Shown: positions 1 to 9,525 of the stretch, one piece after another | Layout of the letters: each line of letters opens with the position of its first letter | Numbering within the stretch: the stretch's first letter is position 1 | Source of the DNA: Candidatus Altimarinota bacterium | GTDB lineage: Bacteria; Patescibacteriota; Gracilibacteria; BD1-5; UBA2023 | Length of the DNA stretch: 9,525 nt | Direction: 5' to 3' | Assembly (NCBI GenBank): GCA_943355085.1 | Contig: CALREC010000011.1 | Coordinates: forward strand, 1 to 9,525 | Program-made: the position numbers and the translations under genes | Notes under the pieces: generated by a model | Database searches by the model: none | Told to the model about the DNA's origin: nothing | What the model saw: the letters and a program-made list of their open reading frames with translations, nothing else

Positions 1-103
1 CCGTACTTTTTTCAGTAAGTTCGGCTATTTCAGTTGCTCAGAGAATATCTTTTCATGTAAAAACATCCAAAATTTGTTGAAGCGACTGAAATTTGTAGGC
101 CAT
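1..103 (-). CDS. Partial wHTH protein, near-identical divergent copy of the 179-1204 gene start
   Basis: Only the first 34 codons are in the window; the gene runs off the left edge. Starting at the ATG read from 103 to 101, the product begins MAYKFQSLQQ and continues into a predicted helix-turn-helix stretch (ATEIAELTEK). It contains two in-frame TGA codons at residues 17 and 22, read as Gly. It matches the N-terminus of the gene at 179 at 33 of 34 residues: the only replacement is Gln10 here for His10 there, and one further codon (residue 28, GAA versus GAG) differs silently. Inference: either the 5' end of a diverged paralogue arranged head to head, or an assembly/amplification chimera that copied the neighbouring gene in inverted orientation. 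Whether the copy goes on beyond the wHTH cannot be seen. Confidence 0.5.
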
Positions 104-112
104 AGTAAATAT

Positions 113-169
113 ATTATAGATAAAACACTTTAGTATAAATAGTTTATACTAAAGTGTTTTATATATAAT
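113..169. promoter_or_regulatory. Divergent promoter pair with central operator-like palindrome
   Basis: A TATAAT hexamer occurs on the plus strand at 164-169 and its mirror image on the minus strand at 118-113. Each lies only 9 nt from its ATG (179 and 103), so transcripts would be leaderless or nearly so. Between them, 122-160 is a symmetric palindrome with arms AAAACACTTTAGTATAAA and TTTATACTAAAGTGTTTT around a 3-nt centre. It covers the space where both -35 elements would lie; I see no consensus -35. Because both genes encode a wHTH, autoregulation through this palindrome is a reasonable inference. It could instead fold as a hairpin. Confidence 0.5.
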
Positions 170-178
170 ATATTTACT

Positions 179-1204
179 ATGGCCTACAAATTTCAGTCGC
201 TTCAACACATTTTGGATGTTTTTACATGAAAAGATATTCTCTGAGCAACTGAAATAGCCGAGCTTACTGAAAAAAGTACGGTTATTGTACACAAGTATTT
301 AAAAGAACTTGTCACACAGTGAAAACTTCAAAAAATAGGAATAGGCCCAGGGACAAAATATACCATGGTCTGAACCGAGCAAGCAACTAAGTATGAACAA
401 AAACCCGAACTACCAAAAAACCTGTCACAAGTGAGCTATCAAGATAAAAAGCTTCTTGATGATATCTTCCTCAAATTCAGTCCAGAAGGAAATATTCTCA
501 AGTGATTTGAAGGACTGGAAAACTGGTGCCAAGAAAGGGGTTTGAATGTAGCAGAAAAAGTTATTGCCTATATTGGAATATACGCACATCTGCAAAAACT
601 GAAGGATCATTGCTGACTCCTCGATGCAAAGACATCTTTTGGGCACGATTTCGATGCGGTATATATAGATCAAGTATACTATGCTGACCAGTATAAATGG
701 ATGGATTTCTGAAGGGGAAAACTCGCAGAGATGACATTTTATGCAAAGCAATCTCAAAACAAGAAACTTATTTCCGAGAGTATCCATGAGGTTATTCGTA
801 GTATCGAGTGTCTGATAGCCCAAGAAGGTTATAATGCTATTGGAATTGTACCATGGAGTATCAATCGGAAAAATCAACTTTTAAAGATATTCAAGAATCA
901 GCTAAAATCGGTAGGTATTCCTTTCGTAAATATCATCAAGTACTACCCAAGTGGTATTTCCGTACCGCAAAAATCCTTAAAAACTAGAGAGCAGCGTATT
1001 CAAAATGCGAAAAATACCATCTTTGTAGATGATATAGATATCAAAAACTATGAAAAAGTATTACTCATAGATGACTTCGTAGGATCTGGAGCTACTCTCA
1101 ATGAAACGGCCAAAAAACTCAAACAAGCGTGAGTGAAAAAAGTAGACTCTTTCGCTTTTGTCGGGAATCTTAATCTGAGTTATGAAGTGATTAATGAGAT
1201 TTAG
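179..1204 (+). CDS. wHTH-ComF-like phosphoribosyltransferase fusion protein (341 aa)
   Basis: One open frame from ATG 179 to TAG 1202-1204 when TGA is read as Gly; TGA occurs at codons 17, 22, 48, 65, 109, 146, 178 and 318. Residues about 10-65 look like a winged helix-turn-helix (ATEIAELTEKSTVIVHKYL, then a wing-like GIGPGTKYTM). The C-terminal half is a type I phosphoribosyltransferase fold of the ComF type: IGIVPWS near residue 220, a QKSLKTREQRIQNAK segment resembling the ComF Q-x-x-L-x-x-x-x-R-x-x-N motif, and the PRPP loop VLLIDDFVGSGAT at residues 294-306 with the two acidic residues D298 and D299. Residues 70-200 are not recognised. The architecture recalls Bacillus PurR, which also joins a wHTH to a PRPP-binding domain, but the sequence resembles ComF more. 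The target, and whether the protein is an enzyme or a sensor, are unknown. It sits alone, diverging from a near-copy of its own start, and probably regulates itself through the shared palindrome. Confidence 0.85.
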
Positions 1205-1262
1205 GAATACAGTTGCTCACGGAAAGTGGTCAGTTTTTACTTCACCCAAGGCATACTATCAG

Positions 1263-1282
1263 AAAACTTTTATAAGTTTTTT
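1263..1282 (+). terminator. Weak hairpin plus T-run after the phosphoribosyltransferase gene
   Basis: A 7-bp stem AAAACTT / AAGTTTT around the loop TTAT runs into further T residues, about 60 nt past the TAG stop. The stem is almost all A:T, so a working intrinsic terminator is uncertain. The rest of the 213-bp gap to infB is AT-rich and shows no further gene or RNA that I recognise. Confidence 0.3.
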
Positions 1283-1392
1283 GACTTTACGTACCGAAAA
1301 CATATACTCTTTCTCATATTACCACATAACAAAAAGATAAACAGACAATATTTTCTTTCAAAAAGCAACTATTTCTCTGTACATCTCTTTTA

Positions 1393-1398
1393 TATAAT
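1393..1398 (+). promoter_or_regulatory. Candidate -10 box of the infB promoter
   Basis: A perfect TATAAT ends 19 nt before the ATG at 1418, implying a 5' leader of roughly a dozen bases. No clear -35 hexamer is seen 15-18 nt upstream, and no Shine-Dalgarno sequence lies between the box and the start (the DNA there is CACCTATATATAAA). Confidence 0.45.
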
Positions 1399-1417
1399 TA
1401 CCCCACCTATATATAAA

Positions 1418-3889
1418 ATGACAGATAAGATTACAACAAGTTTTGATGATTATTATGCACATATTCCAACTGCAAATACTCCCGAGGAAGAAGCCTCAAA
1501 GAAAAAAGGATTAAAATTAAAAGTAAAGGCAAAAAAAGTCGAAGAAGCATCTCCGGTACAGGCATTTGTGCCTCCTCTTGAAATCATACCAGAGGCTCCT
1601 GTTAAAAAATGAGCGAAAGACAAGAAGTCTTCCGTTGCCATTATTTGGTCTCCAAAGGAAACTAAAATAGTAGAGGCAGTAGTTACAAAGCCGCCCCAGG
1701 CCATTGCACCAAAAAATGCTTTTGTGCATGCTCCAAAAGATATTCCGAAAACACCATTTGTTCCCCGTACTTCTGTTTCTAAAACACCGAAAACACCATT
1801 TGTTCCTCGCATCTCATTTTCGCCGAGTGAAAAAATGGCTCCAGTGAAAAAAGAAGGGACAGAAAATACACCATTTGTTTTTACCCCACGATCGAGTGAA
1901 TCTTGAAAAAGTGAAAAAAAGGTATTTGGGAATAACAAGCAAAAATGAGGTACTGGAAAGTCGCCATTCTCTTTTTGAGACCGACATGGAGGAAAAAAGA
2001 CTCTCAAAACCCGTTGATATGCTGAAGATGATGGAGGATTTCGTCGATCCGGAAAGGTTGTTGCGAGCGAGAAAAAAGAACGTGACATTGATGATATAAA
2101 ACAAACACTAACCGATAAGACGGGTCAGGAGATCACTATACCAGAGGTACTTACTGTAAAGGAGTTTTCTGAAAAAATTGGAATTCCACTTGTGAAAATT
2201 ATTACTGAGCTCATGAAAAATGGGATGATGGTAACAATCAATACAAAGATAGATTTCGATACCTGTTTTCTTATTGGTGAGATATTCGGAATGAAGATAA
2301 CCAAAGAAATCAGCACTAAGGCAAGTGTATCAAGCCTTATGGATGGAAATATCGACGATCTGCTCAAAAATGACGATGTAAATAAGATGATTACTCGAGC
2401 ACCAATTGTTTCTGTTATGGGACATGTTGATCATGGAAAGACATCTATACTCGATTATATCCGAAGCACTGAAATTACAAAAGGAGAAGCTGGTGGTATT
2501 ACTCAGAAAATAGGAGCGTATCAGGTAGAGAAAAATGGAAAAAAGATTACTTTTCTCGATACTCCTGGACATGAGGCATTTTCTATCATGCGTGCACGTG
2601 GAGCAAAACTCACAGACCTTGCCGTGATTGTTATCGCAGGAGATGAAGGGATGAAGCCTCAGACTATTGAATCTATCAATCATGCGAAAGAGGCTTGAGT
2701 TCCCATGATTATCGCGGTTAATAAGATGGATAAACCAGGGGCAAATGTCGAGTTTGTCTACGGACAACTTGCCGAGCAAGGTTTGCAACCAGAAAAATGG
2801 GGCGGAGATGTTATTGTCGTGCCTGTTTCTGCGCACACCGGACTTGGTATCGAAGATCTTCTCGATATGATCCTCCTCTCAACTGAGATGATGGAGCTTA
2901 AGGCAACCGTTGATCGTCCTGCTATCGCTACTGTTATAGAATCGCATCTCGATGCAAAACTTGGACCTTTGGCAACCGTGCTCGTAAACACTGGTACCAT
3001 AAAGAAAGGTGATTATGTTGCCTGCGGATCTGCTAGTGGGCGTGTGCGATTTCTCCGAGATTTCAAGGGAAAGAATGTCGATCGTGCAGGTCCATCTGTC
3101 CCTGTGTTGGTTTCTGGTATGTCAAAAACGGTTGGAGGGGGTGACATCCTTCAGGTGGTTTCTGACTCTCTCACTGCAGCAGCGAAAGCACATGAATTTC
3201 AGCTTGTTCAGAGTACCAAGAGTATCCATAACTTCGAAGGTGCATCTCTTGATCTTCTCCTTAATCGACTTAAAACCTGAGGACTGAAGCAGCTCAAAGT
3301 GGTTCTTAAATGTGAATCCAACGGAAGTCTCGAAGCTCTAAAAAATGCTCTTGGTAAGCTCTCAACAGGAGAAACTCGAGTGACTTTTATCCACTCTGCT
3401 GTCGGAGATGTCAATGATTCTGACGTCGTACTTGCGGGTACAAGCCAAGCCATCCTCATTGCCTACAATGTCGGAGTTGGAGTCCGAGCCAAAAATACGC
3501 TCGCCAATTCTAAAATCGAGTTTATCGACAAGAAGGTTATTTATCACGTGCTCGATCGAATAGAAGCGATCATTACTGGTATGGTCGATACTCGTTACGA
3601 AGATGTCGAGCTTGGAGAAACGAAAGTCAAAGCGATATTCTACAACGGAAAAGATAAGATGATTGTTGGGCTTGAAGTAAAAACAGGAAAGATCGAGAAT
3701 CGAGCCAAGATACGTATCATCCGAGATGGAAAGAAGATTGCCAATGGTGAAGTGGCGAATCTCAAATCTTGACTTCTAGATGTGAATGAAATCGAAGCAG
3801 GTAATGATTGCGGTATCTCATACAAGGGAGATACGAAGCCGGAAGTGGGGGATGTGCTTGAGATGTATAAGACGGTCATCAAAAAATAA
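1418..3889 (+). CDS. infB: Translation initiation factor IF-2 (823 aa)
   Basis: IF-2 is the GTPase that places initiator fMet-tRNA on the 30S subunit and promotes 50S joining. The frame is continuous to TAA 3887-3889 with eight internal TGA codons (65, 163, 177, 187, 200, 427, 621, 785) read as Gly. Residues 1-240 are low-complexity, Lys/Pro/Ser-rich and probably disordered, with a repeated TPFVPR motif. An IF2_N-like domain follows at about 245-295. The G domain has G1 GHVDHGKT (335-342), G3 DTPGH (381-385) and G4 NKMD (435-438). The beta-barrel and C-terminal domains fill the rest and end in a typical domain IV. Length is between the B. subtilis and E. coli proteins. Gly427, in KEAGVP, is a common IF-2 glycine encoded by TGA. 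The frame is open back to a GTG at 1226, but ATG 1418 is chosen because the TATAAT lies just upstream and the extra sequence is AT-rich and unlike IF-2. The usual nusA-infB-rbfA neighbours are absent: infB stands alone, convergent with hflX. Confidence 0.97.
1745..1806 (+). repeat. Direct repeat in infB encoding KTPFVPR units
   Basis: A 20-bp sequence (CCGAAAACACCATTTGTTCC) occurs at 1745-1764 and again at 1787-1806, a 42-nt or 14-codon period. Both copies encode PKTPFVP. A third, diverged copy near 1868-1880 encodes TPFVF. The repeats lie in the disordered N-terminal region of IF-2, which commonly varies in length. Confidence 0.85.
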
Positions 3890-3892
3890 CTG

Positions 3893-3901
3893 TGATATAA
3901 T
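3893..3901 (+). promoter_or_regulatory. Possible extended -10 box just after infB
   Basis: TGATATAAT matches an extended -10 (TGn-TATAAT) four bases past the infB stop, with no convincing -35. Transcription would run through the convergent gap into the 3' end of hflX as antisense RNA, and would meet the hairpin at 3942-3967. It may be chance in AT-rich DNA. Confidence 0.2.
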
Positions 3902-3941
3902 CCTGCCTTATGGGGGCTTATTAAGTAGCAAAAAGGATTTT

Positions 3942-3967
3942 TGAGAATTGATGAAAAACAATTCTCA
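3942..3967. terminator. Hairpin between convergent infB and hflX, likely bidirectional terminator
   Basis: A perfect 9-bp stem TGAGAATTG / CAATTCTCA encloses the 8-nt loop ATGAAAAA. It sits 52 nt past the infB stop and 23 nt past the hflX stop. The plus strand continues with only TTT; the minus strand continues with AAAATCCTTTTT. The stem is solid but the T-runs are short or displaced, so the efficiency of termination is uncertain. Confidence 0.55.
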
Positions 3968-3990
3968 TTTGAGCAGGATATTTTGTTCTA

Positions 3991-5223
3991 TTACTCCAAC
4001 AACTCTCCAATTCTCTCCTTCAGCTCTTCTATTCATCGTCCGTTCACTGCACTTATAAAGATGGGATTCAATTCTGCGAATTGCTCCTTCATCATAAGGA
4101 TGGCGAGGTCGGACATATTGTCAATCTTATTGAATACGTAGATACGATCTTGCTCAGCTCCAATGTGTGCGAGTGTCGTATCTACGATACCTATTTTGTC
4201 GAGCACCTTGGGGTCACTCGCATCTATGACATGAAGGAGGATATCTGCCTCGATGGAATCCTCAAGTGTCGAAGAAAACGCTCGGATGAGTTCTGGGGGC
4301 AAGTCTCGGATAAATCCGATGGTGTCGTTTATGAGGACTTCTTTTCATCTCTGATAATCTATAAAACCTTCTGCGGAAACTTCATCTCTTTCCACTTCCT
4401 TCCCGTCCCTTCTCCTAGGAGGAGAAGGGTGATTTATCTCACTTTTTACTCCCTCTCCTTCTAGGAGAGGGTTAGGGTGAGGTAAACTAGGTGGCAACCA
4501 CATCTTCCCGACACTCGTTCCAAGTGTTGCAAAGAGTTTATCTTCAGCAAGAACTCACTTATGCGTGAGTGTATTCATGAGTGTAGATTTTCAGGCGTTC
4601 GTATACCCAACAATTCCGACTGTTTTCAAGTCTTTGCGCTTTCGTGCCTTGCGATGTTCGCTCCGAGTTTTGGAGTACCGCTCAAGTTTTTCAATTATTT
4701 TGAGCTCATGATCTCGAAGGTGTCGCTTCATGATCTCGGTATTGGTTTCACCGAGTCCGCGCATGGCTCCAGAACCTCATCAACCCTGGCGAGAGAGTTC
4801 CATACCCATTCCAAATATCCGTGGTCCCATATGGCGAATAGAGGCGAGTTCGATCTGAAGCTTTGCCTCTGGAGAGCGCGCATTTTGATCAAATATCTTC
4901 AGTATGAGATCGATCCGGTCCCAGGCCTGGATTTTGGATTTCCGTTCCCGGAGAATCTCATTGATATGATATATCTGCGCAGGCTTCAGGATATTCCCGA
5001 TGATAATTCGCTCCGCTCAAAGTTCTTCCCCAGCTGCTATCATCTCCTCAAGTTTTCCTGTTCCGACATAGGTATTGTAATCAGGAGTATCACGCTTTTG
5101 AATACGTTTTACAACAACCGTATCGCCATAAGTAGACACGAGTGACTCAAGCTCTGCCATACGTGCCTCGAGATCATTTGCTTTTATATTTTGTGGAGCT
5201 ATATCAACAATGATGGTTTTCAT
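3991..5223 (-). CDS. hflX: Ribosome-associated GTPase HflX with an inserted repeat peptide (410 aa)
   Basis: HflX binds 50S/70S ribosomes and splits stalled or hibernating ribosomes. The frame runs from ATG 5223-5221 to TAA 3993-3991 with seven internal TGA codons read as Gly. The N-terminal HflX domain includes [10 protein letters not shown] and the glycine-rich linker [19 protein letters not shown] near 137-155, where the two central glycines are TGA. The G domain has G1 GYTNAGKST (206-214, with Gly211 encoded by TGA at 4593-4591), G3 DTIGF (300-304), G4 NKID (365-368) and G5 SAVNG (from 391). Between LFATL (ending at 234) and DTIGF there are about 65 residues, where HflX proteins usually have about 20; the surplus of roughly 45 coincides with two DNA palindromes and encodes a Pro-rich, charged peptide. 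The protein ends soon after G5 ([14 protein letters not shown]), so it lacks the longer C-terminal domain of the E. coli protein. It diverges from the glycosyltransferase gene. No clear Shine-Dalgarno or strong promoter is visible upstream. Confidence 0.96.
4407..4490. repeat. REP-like double palindrome inserted in frame within hflX
   Basis: Two hairpins lie in tandem. At 4407-4429 CCCTTCTCCT pairs with AGGAGAAGGG around AGG (10-bp stem); at 4451-4471 CCCTCTCCT pairs with AGGAGAGGG around TCT (9-bp stem), followed by TTAGGGTGAGGT. This resembles the widespread REP-like family of the form CCCTCTCC...GGAGAGGGTTAGGGTGAGG, normally intergenic. Here the minus strand reads through it as [12 protein letters not shown] and NHPSPPRRR without a stop or frameshift, and HflX resumes with [13 protein letters not shown]. 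Inference: a mobile palindromic element that landed in a tolerant loop, comparable in principle to Rickettsia palindromic elements inside genes. Confidence 0.75.
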
Positions 5224-5308
5224 AGAAAAGTAGGTGAAAATATTAACGGTATATGTTACGGAATTGCTCTCGAAAGTAAAGAGAAAATTATTTTTTGAGA
5301 TACTATAT

Positions 5309-5336
5309 TTGCACTTTTTTCACTTATCTCTATAAT
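5309..5336 (+). promoter_or_regulatory. Promoter of the glycosyltransferase-PEGA operon
   Basis: TTGCAC (5309-5314), a 16-bp spacer, and a perfect TATAAT (5331-5336) precede the ATG at 5369, predicting a 5' leader of about 25 nt with no Shine-Dalgarno sequence. The rest of the 145-bp gap between the divergent hflX and glycosyltransferase genes is AT-rich and holds no other recognisable element. Confidence 0.65.
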
Positions 5337-5368
5337 CCCACGCATTCGCATATTATTTACCTGATCCC

Positions 5369-6847
5369 ATGAAACTGCATCCATATTTTTTGAGTCAGGC
5401 TTTTTTGTCCAAACTTCCTATTGTATTTCTCTGTATTATATTTTTTGTTCCCATTATTCTTCTGAGCGTAAATTATCAACTCGGGATACTTTTCATCGCT
5501 TTTTATATATCGTATTGGACTATAAAAGTTTTTGAATCCTATTACTATGTCCTGACTTCTTATATCACACTACTGCGTACCAATAAAAAAGATTATTCTG
5601 ATTATCCCGTTATCCTCTCAGACGCCAAGCATCTCATACATATTGTGATTGTTCCTATCTATTCTGAGCCATACGATGTCATTAAAGAAAATATAGAATC
5701 TATCATTGCTAATGATTATCCTTACAAGGAAAATATTGTTGTTCTCCTGGCCACCGAGGAGCGTTGACCTGGGGCTATGCAAAATGCTCATAGGATTGTA
5801 GCTGATTTTTCAGGCACTTCTCCAGTTCGGATTGTAAATGTTGTGCATCCCCCGAATATCCCTGGAGAAGGAAAGGTAAAAGGATCCAATATTACCTATG
5901 CGATAAGGCGATATATGGAGACTATAGAGCTGGATGATCGCATGACATTTGTTTCCACCATAGATACCGATACATTGGTAGAACCAAATTTTTTTCTCAT
6001 CACGAGTTATGTATTTCTTTCTACCGAACATAATCAAAACGCCATCTATCAGTATACCCCAGTATATGCCAATAACTGGCATAAAGGAACATTTTTTGCT
6101 CGCCTCATTGCCATGGGGACCACTTTTTGGCAACTCTCAGAATCACAAAATCCTGAATTTTATCGTAACTTTGCCGTATATGGACAGTCTTTGTATTGCT
6201 TAAAGCAATCCAATTTTTGGTCTTTGACAAGTATTGTAGAGGATTGATTTCAGTACTGGCGGAGTTATTTTGCCTTTGATGGAATGTTTCGCATCGTGAA
6301 TGTGCCTGCTGTATGTCGAATGGATATAGTGGAAGAGGAAACCTTTTTAAAAACTATTCGCTCTCAGTACAAACAACTCAGAAGGTGGTCTTGGGGGTGT
6401 ACTGATATTGAGTTTGTAATCCCTCAGTTTGTCCAAAATTCCAAAATTCCCACTTTTGAGAAGGTAAAAAAAACTATATATCTCATATTTAATCATCTCT
6501 TTTGGGCTGGGGGTGCTTTTATGCTTTTTTTTATCGGATATATTCCCGGTATTCTTTCGTCTGTTCATGAGTCTATAATTACTCTCACTATTCCCCTTAT
6601 TACCTCCTTTCTTTTTACCTGGATATTTGCCACGATTATTTTTCCAAGCATTATCTCCATTTTGATTATGAAAAAATATACTACATTTCGCAAACGAGAT
6701 TACATATTTAATATTTTTCAGTGGGCACTCATCCCTGTTCTTACTCTTACGCTTTTTTCTCTCCCGGCAATAGAAAGTCAGCTTCGTCTTTTTTTTGGAA
6801 AGAGACTTGGAACCTTTGAAACGACACAAAAGATGAAGCGTAATTAA
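5369..6847 (+). CDS. Membrane family 2 glycosyltransferase, processive type (492 aa)
   Basis: A membrane enzyme that probably moves sugars from a nucleotide-sugar donor onto a growing polysaccharide or lipid acceptor; the sugar is unknown. Two N-terminal membrane segments (about 17-34 and 38-55) precede the GT-A domain. The domain starts near HIVIVPIYSEP, has a D-x-D-type motif IDTDT (D199, D201), the catalytic-site ED at 291-292 followed by a TGA-coded Gly293, and the acceptor/product motif QLRRW (336-340), the Q-x-x-R-W of cellulose- and chitin-synthase-like enzymes. Hydrophobic stretches follow at about 375-395, 406-435 and 452-470. TGA at 5765-5767 and 6245-6247 are the only two internal ones; the stop is TAA. 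The next gene begins 16 nt after the stop, so the two are probably co-transcribed from the promoter at 5309-5336. There is no PilZ domain, so no sign of cyclic-di-GMP control. Confidence 0.9.
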
Positions 6848-6863
6848 TAATAATATCCTTTTT

Positions 6864-8132
6864 ATGATCCCTTCCTACCAAGAAGAAATTCGTATACGCA
6901 AAAACAAGGACCGCATTTTTTGGTTTGTGGTTATTGTCATGACGATGTTTCTTTATTTCTTTTTTCAAGGATATTATCCTAACTATGAACGCCTACTCGA
7001 CGGAGCGAATACTTCTAAGCAAGCTTTCCTTAAGCCATTTGGTATCATAGATATTCACGTATTCCCATCACCCGATACCATACTTGTCAACAATGAGAGA
7101 TACAATAATAATTCAAAAACAATATTTGATTTAGGTGAATATGTCGTAGGCATCAAGAAGGATGGATATCTTCCAATTACTTTTCCTATAGATATCAATA
7201 AAAAGAATCCATTTTTTACAAATGTAGTAAATCTCTTTGCTCTTCCAGAATACTCACGTCTTCCGATAAACTTCGATAAGATTTCTGTTTATGACGATTT
7301 TTTTCTTCTCCATACAACAGGAACAGGCTGATTGGTTTTAGTGGGTAGTGATTTTCAAGTTATCCATCGTATACCTCTGCGCTATTGATACATAGGAGGT
7401 TTATATTTTACTGATGGCAGCAATATATATAGCTATTCTCTCGATACTGATAAATTTTTAAATGTTATTGATCGAGAAACAAGCCTTCCGATTCAGTGTA
7501 CTCATATATCTTATTTTGGAGAAAAACTTTTTTGTCATGACAGTATGCGATTTGTATGAACAAAAATATCTGAGATACAAGAAAAGATACTTAAGATTAA
7601 TGATCGCGTCATTGTTACATCAAAGTATATCTACAATCAGGATTCTGCCAATATGAACTGGAAGTACTTTGAATATAAATCTGGTACATTAAGACTTCCT
7701 AGCGCGGTCGTACATCTTAATAAGATTCCCTATTTTTTCGAGAATGGAAAACTTTCTCCCGTTGATAAGATATATACAGGAGCGCTCTTTGAGTATTGAC
7801 TCGATAGTATCACTTGAGTGAAAGAATTTGATGATGATACCATCCTTCTGTGAGAAAAACAAGGGCGTGCTCAATTTGTGTTCATCTCTTCAGAAAAGAT
7901 ATATAGTGGATTGTTTGATTTCGAGGATATTAACGATATTACAGTTCATAAGCTCAATGGTGCCTATGTATTTATTACAAAAAAATCTGCCTATATATAC
8001 TATAAGGGTGCCAAAGAAATTGTTAAGATTTTAGACCAAGCAGATGTCGCATGAATGGTAGACGCAAAGATATTTTTCAACAAGGAATGAAAATCTTATG
8101 TCGTAGATCTTTTGAGGAAAGTATCAAAATAA
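6864..8132 (+). CDS. Membrane-anchored PEGA-domain protein (422 aa)
   Basis: The frame runs from ATG 6864 to TAA 8130-8132 with eight internal TGA codons (7329, 7386, 7557, 7797, 7815, 7851, 8052, 8088) read as Gly. A short charged N-terminus is followed by one hydrophobic segment (about 18-36), fitting a signal anchor with the bulk outside the membrane. Residues about 60-125 resemble a PEGA domain: GIIDIHVFPSPDTILVNNE, then LGEYVVGIKKDGYLPITF, the pattern of a short beta-sandwich with the closing K-x-G-Y. The remaining 300 residues are beta-rich, aromatic and low in known motifs; a beta-propeller or similar surface domain is possible but not shown. PEGA domains are common in surface proteins. 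Sixteen bases separate it from the glycosyltransferase, so a joint role in envelope or surface polysaccharide is likely. It is convergent with the methyltransferase gene, 46 bp away. Confidence 0.8.
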
Positions 8133-8178
8133 AAGATAGTTGAGGTACAATGTTCCTGCCTTTATATACCGGGTTTTT

Positions 8179-9117
8179 TTACCAGTCTTTTCGTATTTTG
8201 GCCAAATAAAACCCCTCAGTAAGATGTGATGGTAGAATTCGAATAGTGTTTTCTATAGCATCATTATAGACTCTGCCATCAAAACTTTGGATTCAGGGTA
8301 TCGCATATTGCAGGTTTCCAATTTCAATTTTTTCTAGCTTGAAATCTGGATGTTGTGCAATCACATTGCTCACTACTGCTTCATTTTCTTCTGGAGCAAG
8401 CGTGCATGTGGAGTAAACAAGTACTCATCATTTTTTGAGAAGTGGCATACATGCTTCTAGAAGCATAGTCTGAATCATTGCTTTTTCTCGTATATTCCTA
8501 AGCGTCCAGAACCCATAGGATTTTTCATCTGAGAGCTTGAACCGCCCTTCTGCGCTACAAGGGGCATCGAGCAGAATGGCATCAAAGGTCTCGGGATTAA
8601 TTTGACTCATGAGCTTGAGGGCATCTATCTTATGGGTCTCTATATTCGTCGCACCCTGAAGTTTTATATTATAAACGAGTTTGTCGTAGCGAATCTGGTG
8701 TTTTTCACAGGCAATGATTCTTCATTCATTATTCATGAGAGCAGACATTTGTGTCGTTTTAGATCCCGGTGCTGCCGTCACATCGAGCACATTCATATTG
8801 CTTTTTAAGTCAAGTATATTTGCCGGAATTTGGCTTGCGAGTCCTTGTAGATATATTTTTCCTTCATAAAAAAGAGTACTTCCTTTGAGAGTAAACTCAT
8901 ATTTTTTCTCTATAACATAACTCAGAGCCGGGAATACAGGTTTATCGAAGGGGATATTTGATGTACACAAAAATGATTCAACTTCTCCAGCCGTTGTTTT
9001 GAGTATATTGACCCTAAAAGCACATACCCGCTCATTCATATATCCCTTGATCACTTGTTCTTTGTCTTTTGTTGTAAGAAACGATTCAATTCTTTGAAGA
9101 TATTTTTTTGGAATCAT
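8179..9117 (-). CDS. RsmB/RsmF/NSUN-family RNA (cytosine-5) methyltransferase (312 aa)
   Basis: Uses S-adenosylmethionine to methylate C5 of a cytosine in RNA, most likely rRNA. Starts MIPKKYLQRIESFL at ATG 9117-9115 and ends in TAA 8181-8179, with four internal TGA codons (8722, 8428, 8425, 8293) read as Gly. The SAM-binding motif I is DVTAAPGSK (112-120). Motif IV DAPCSAEGR (184-192) carries the product-release cysteine C187, and motif VI STCT (236-239) carries the catalytic cysteine C238; both cysteines of this family are present with normal spacing, followed by APEENE. The two glycines just before the STCT strand (KKGGVLVYSTCT) are both TGA. The protein lacks the NusB-like N-terminal domain of RsmB and the C-terminal extension of RsmF, so a specific symbol is not assigned. 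It is read away from the 16S rRNA gene, back to back with the rRNA promoter. Confidence 0.93.
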
Positions 9118-9385: not shown

Positions 9386-9525
9386 GTTTAAAAGAGTTTG
9401 ATCATAGCTCAGGATGAACGCTAGCGGTGCGCCTAACACATGCAAGTCGAACGGATATAGAGGGCTTGCTCTCTATATTAGTGGCAAACGGGTGAGTAAC
9501 AAGTTTGTACCTACCCCAAAGTGAG
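9386..9525 (+). rRNA. rrs: 16S ribosomal RNA, 5' end (partial)
   Basis: About 140 nt of the small-subunit rRNA, cut by the right edge. The universal 5' signature AGAGTTTGATCATAGCTCAG begins at 9393, placing E. coli position 1 near 9386 by homology. It continues with GATGAACGCTAGCGG, ACACATGCAAGTCGAACGG, a V1-region hairpin (ATATAGAG paired with CTCTATAT, about 9455-9479), and ACGGGTGAGTAAC. The sequence has one base different from the common 27F primer (ATAGCTCAG for ATGGCTCAG). The 3' end with the anti-Shine-Dalgarno is not in the window. Confidence 0.98.

Follow-up and report, generated by a model that had tools for sequence, protein, structure and literature searches.

The window, i.e. the whole 9,525-nucleotide stretch of DNA that was analysed, contains six complete open reading frames (2800 codons), the 5' end of a 16S rRNA gene and a palindromic element inside one of the frames, arranged as follows when TGA is read as a sense codon.

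179..1204, forward strand: ORF of 341 aa with 8 in-frame TGA, stop TAG; its C-terminal part is a phosphoribosyltransferase domain, resembling the PsyrT and ShosT models
1418..3889, forward strand: translation initiation factor IF-2, 823 aa, with 8 in-frame TGA, stop TAA; over the cut-off of TIGR00487
3991..5223, reverse strand: GTPase HflX, 410 aa, with 7 in-frame TGA including that of the P-loop glycine, stop TAA; over the cut-off of TIGR03156
4393..4483, no strand assigned: copy of an interspersed palindromic element, within the HflX gene and in its reading frame (about PHPNPLLEGEG...RRRDGKEV); approximate boundaries, judged by eye
5369..6847, forward strand: family 2 glycosyltransferase, 492 aa, with 2 in-frame TGA, stop TAA; over the Pfam cut-off
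6864..8132, forward strand: ORF of 422 aa with 8 in-frame TGA, stop TAA; at E <= 0.001 it matches no family
8179..9117, reverse strand: RsmB/RsmF-type RNA methyltransferase, 312 aa, with 4 in-frame TGA, stop TAA; over the Pfam cut-off
9386..9525, forward strand: 16S rRNA gene, 5' end, cut by the contig end

Across the six complete frames there are 37 in-frame TGA codons and no internal TAA or TAG, and termination is at TAA in five frames and at TAG in one, exactly as counted in an earlier, sequence-only reading of this DNA. For the frames that begin at 1418 and 6864 the ATG is our own choice, and taking the longest possible starts, at 1226 and 6795, raises the TGA count to 38. TGA makes up 19% of all codons in the six frames that are either GGN or TGA. 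In the two off-frames of the same strands TGA accounts for 50% of the stop triplets, and the chance that all 37 in-frame stops would be TGA, naively calculated from this proportion, is about 1e-11. With code 11, ORFs of 100 aa or more cover 0.62 of the window; once TGA counts as a sense codon, the figure is 0.91. The sequence-only reading had also held that full-length genes are restored in this way. IF-2, HflX, the glycosyltransferase and the methyltransferase pass NCBIfam or Pfam cut-offs, while its naming of the ORF at 6864..8132 as a 'PEGA protein' found no backing, there being no Pfam or NCBIfam match to that ORF at E <= 0.001.

The phosphoribosyltransferase ORF at 179..1204 has its best phage-defence matches to the PsyrT (E 4e-16) and ShosT (E 5e-8) models, in both cases over its C-terminal half only. 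The contig begins with a near-perfect inverted repeat (positions 1-281) with 139-nt arms that are 98% identical and separated by 3 nt, so that the opening 34 codons of this ORF are present a second time in divergent orientation, with two differing bases, one of them silent. A palindrome like it, together with a related N-terminus, is present on contig C67. The inverted repeat may represent either a real divergent gene pair or a fold-back artefact.

Residues at the TGA columns

Placement of the organism was based on an IF-2 scan with one genome per species, which returned 75 loci, eight of them (L079-L086) 59-86% identical to the IF-2 of the window and titled Candidatus Gracilibacteria in seven cases and 'uncultured bacterium' in one. 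The five nearest (L079-L082 and L086), at 81-86% identity, all carry the title Candidatus Gracilibacteria, and the remaining loci reach at most 47% identity over the matched part. By IF-2 identity to named records the organism thus falls within the range of code 25, i.e. Gracilibacteria or Absconditabacteria.

The amino acid at UGA was addressed by aligning the codons of the window to the DNA of relatives at ten loci (L079-L086, L196 and L197), with the relatives' own TGA codons ignored. DNA was used in place of translations because the translations of this clade in the protein collection are untrustworthy for the amino-acid question. At least one non-TGA residue was available from the relatives at 28 of the 37 TGA columns, and among the 98 residues obtained there were 68 glycines, 5 serines, 4 threonines and 21 others, so that 30 residues were not glycine. 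Tryptophan, the predominance of which had been named in advance as the outcome that would speak against a glycine reading, was not among them (0/98). Under a simple BLOSUM62 column scheme of our own, TGA scored 33.2 for Gly, with Ser next at 1.2 and Trp at -21.6, and as a control the same score was right for all 59 of the sense codons that had eight columns or more. The frames of the relatives also contain in-frame TGA, at some of the same sites as in the window.

Homologues of solved structure give a largely concordant picture. All seven TGA sites of HflX are glycine in chain 8vkw_4, as are five of the six aligned sites in 7yla_6, the exception, against glycine, being residue 223, which is Arg in the latter chain. 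There was no homologue of the methyltransferase among the ten column-test loci; compared with the solved chains listed, its four TGA sites are glycine at 4/4 in three chains and at 3/4 in a fourth (1ixk_A), where residue 275 is Ala, again against glycine. For IF-2, 55 homologous ORFs from outside the clade, presumed from their record titles to use the standard code, have glycine at column 427 in 40 of 55 and at column 621 in 47 of 54. At column 785, 44 of 51 of these homologues have Phe, against glycine, and 8/8 relatives have Gly; at the other five of the eight IF-2 TGA sites, which are N-terminal, the outside-clade homologues are gapped, too few or non-glycine. The individual positions for which glycine had been proposed from the sequence were all correct, namely KEA-G-VP of IF-2 (427), the HflX linker (148/149) and P-loop (211), and KK-GG-VLVYSTCT of the methyltransferase (230/231), and the proposal that UGA is read as glycine is itself supported by the columns and by the mostly glycine residues of the solved HflX and methyltransferase homologues.

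Decoding machinery in the clade

A survey of tRNA and release factor (RF) genes covered 59 genomes of the clade, including six congeners, of which 45 form a subset with completeness of 90% or more and contamination of 5% or less. A UCA tRNA was matched in 50/59 genomes and 5/6 congeners, and in 43 of the more complete subset, with no match in the other 2/45. Congener G005 (94% complete) carries 36 tRNA genes, including Gly(UCC), Trp(CCA) and the UCA tRNA, the last of which is labelled SeC by ARAGORN. Thirty of the 50 UCA tRNA loci were read, and all have anticodon TCA with G1:C72, C2:G71, G3:C70 and U73, the criteria of Shulgina and Eddy for glycine identity in a tRNA (PMC8629427). This tRNA would presumably be charged with glycine.

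An RF-1-domain protein was found in 53/59 genomes and in 44/45 of the more complete ones, the remaining genome of the 45 having no release factor match, and there is one copy per genome except for two in G058 (54 matches in total). A PxT motif marks RF1 and SPF marks RF2. Thirty of the 54 loci were read, of which 29 have PxT and one, in G058, has SPF; only G058, of the 59 genomes, contains an RF2 above its cut-off (L226, on contig C153). That contig has a code-11 density of 0.95 and 7/15 of its ORFs end in TGA, in contrast to the 10-kb stretch around the other, RF1-type gene of G058, where a density of 0.035 for code 11 stands against 0.71 for code 25. The RF2 contig is probably a contaminant, because it looks standard-code, unlike the RF1-type contig of the same bin. 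Absence of prfB from BD1-5 genomes has been stated previously (PMC6851277), and two species filed as Gracilibacteria that have RF2 and no UCA tRNA are reported to use UGA as stop (PMC8629427). Three of the 30 release factor genes read (L046, L047 and L048) use TGA for one of the two glycines in their catalytic GGQ motif.

The assembly from which the window derives (G000; 777 kb in 133 contigs) is 78% complete, and in it RF1, RF2, any RF-1-domain match and any match to the UCA tRNA were all not found. The tRNA model identified 18 tRNA genes there, with none, by anticodon, for Ala, Asp, Cys, Gly, Ile, Pro, Trp, Tyr or Val. We read the missing UCA tRNA, RF1 and RF2 as an assembly gap, and as evidence neither way, because tRNAs for nine amino acids are missing as well. 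Comparison of this genome with the release factor region of G005 gave two matches only, of 51 and 56 bases. Contig C98 of G000 carries the gene that adjoins the UCA tRNA in some congeners and is preceded on C98 by a large ORF; the distance and orientation of this gene vary among the congeners fetched. Through its relatives only, the window's own genome would be expected to have tRNA-Gly(UCA) and RF1 and to lack RF2.

It is very likely that each of the six complete genes in the window reads UGA as glycine, and not as stop, i.e. that the genome uses NCBI genetic code 25. Under the proposed mechanism, the predicted tRNA-Gly with anticodon UCA, carried by sister genomes of the genus, would decode UGA, and RF1 would terminate at UAA and UAG, native RF2 appearing to be absent from the clade. 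A partly ambiguous UGA, mostly glycine and in part stop, with RF2 kept somewhere, would be in keeping with the one RF2 over the cut-off among the 59 genomes, but that gene lies on the probable contaminant contig of G058, and we regard ambiguity as very unlikely.

Tryptophan at UGA (code 4) is the form in which the protein collection translates this contig, its entries for the HflX and methyltransferase of the window (P0001 and P0121) having W at 11 of 11 TGA sites. However, this reading would place Trp in the HflX P-loop (NAWKST), TGG columns score as Trp, unlike TGA, and none of the residues recovered at the TGA columns is Trp; the column test refutes code 4, which is accordingly given still less credence than ambiguity, and the two entries are evidently products of code-4 translation. 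Entries with Trp at UGA, as here even in the HflX P-loop, need re-translation. Least credible of all is that the genes are decayed pseudogenes, or that the TGA codons are assembly errors, an idea in favour of which stands the fragmentation of the assembly into its many contigs. Decay would be expected to produce TAA and TAG as well, but none of the 37 in-frame stops is of either type, a bias that refutes pseudogenisation, and both IF-2 and HflX lie above curated cut-offs; the in-frame TGA codons that the relatives share with the window, partly at the same sites, count against decay and error alike.

A palindromic element within HflX

The HflX of the window has about 47 extra residues relative to its solved homologues, situated between the P-loop and the DTxGF motif, and a palindromic repeat lies within them. 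The core of this element, CCTCTCCTNCTAGGAGAGG, has 10 exact copies in the own genome, while the reversed control has 0. Seven of the ten lie within ORFs of 320 aa or more, in the frame that gives LL[EG]GEG, six of these seven as PHP[NS]PLL[EG]GEG. The hosts are the HflX of the window and, at L211-L216, LigA, PolA, Tex, MutY and two family 4 glycosyltransferases. As for the remaining three copies, a tRNA-Glu gene follows directly downstream of one, which is overlapped by a putative 181-aa ORF, and the other two are not spanned by any ORF of 100 aa.

LigA has 50 residues where the ligase 2owo has 4, and PolA and Tex have 12 and about 22 extra residues, respectively, relative to solved homologues; in MutY and in the glycosyltransferase other than L211 the element lies outside the aligned domain or at its border, and no insertion is directly visible. 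Six further HflX proteins were aligned, and these comprise two with a similar insert (P0002 and P0071), two with a differing insert (P0003 and P0005) and two without such an insert (P0004 and P0007). In two of the seven fusions, those of LigA and one glycosyltransferase, the frame runs across a TGA close to the element's far end. Over the five copies examined, open frames increase from 4/30 under the standard code to 9/30 under code 25, although such a rise is expected for many sequences once one of the three stops is ignored.

Comparison with known genetic codes and palindromes

The window shares with code 4, as used by Mycoplasmatales and insect symbionts, the reading of UGA as a sense codon, and differs from it in that the columns are Gly and not Trp. 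UGA as glycine is likewise shared with the code 25 of Absconditabacteria (SR1). Reassignment of CGA and CGG to Trp has been predicted for Absconditabacteria, and of CGG also in some Gracilibacteria (PMC8629427), but this change does not show in the window, where CGA (25 columns) and CGG (9 columns) both score as Arg and neither codon is rare (28 and 11 of the 2800 codons, respectively); the Arg score puts the window outside this reassignment.

With the code 25 of Gracilibacteria (BD1-5), the window has in common a sense UGA that corresponds to glycine and UAA and UAG kept as stops, and its clade has in common a UCA tRNA with glycine identity elements, an RF1-type factor and apparently no native RF2. 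No difference from that code was found; the own assembly is not complete enough for the tRNA or RF1 to appear in it. Glycine at UGA was predicted for this group and then supported by proteomics in another BD1-5 organism, with 97 peptides unique to Gly versus 3 for Trp (PMC4032931). The assignment is therefore already known in Gracilibacteria, and the window adds one more genome to those with code 25.

The palindromic repeat in HflX and six other ORFs is more unusual than code 25 itself. Rickettsia is known to have protein-coding palindromes (PMC10969869, PMC2229807), and so, going by a reference title in that literature, is Wolbachia. No published palindromic element was found for this group or for the Candidate Phyla Radiation among the matches listed from the open-access literature. 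The element resembles the Rickettsia palindromic elements (RPE) in being a palindrome of about 100 bp joined in frame to conserved proteins that are unrelated to one another, here in seven of the ten copies, with a recurring peptide; it differs in belonging to another phylum, and the likeness is one of features. A possible interpretation, which we hold tentatively and with slightly more doubt than confidence, is that this gracilibacterium carries a protein-coding palindrome comparable to RPE that spread in frame through housekeeping proteins, and that the change of UGA to glycine may have helped it to do so. With the in-frame palindrome one could directly test whether proteins tolerate insertions more easily when a stop codon is recoded.
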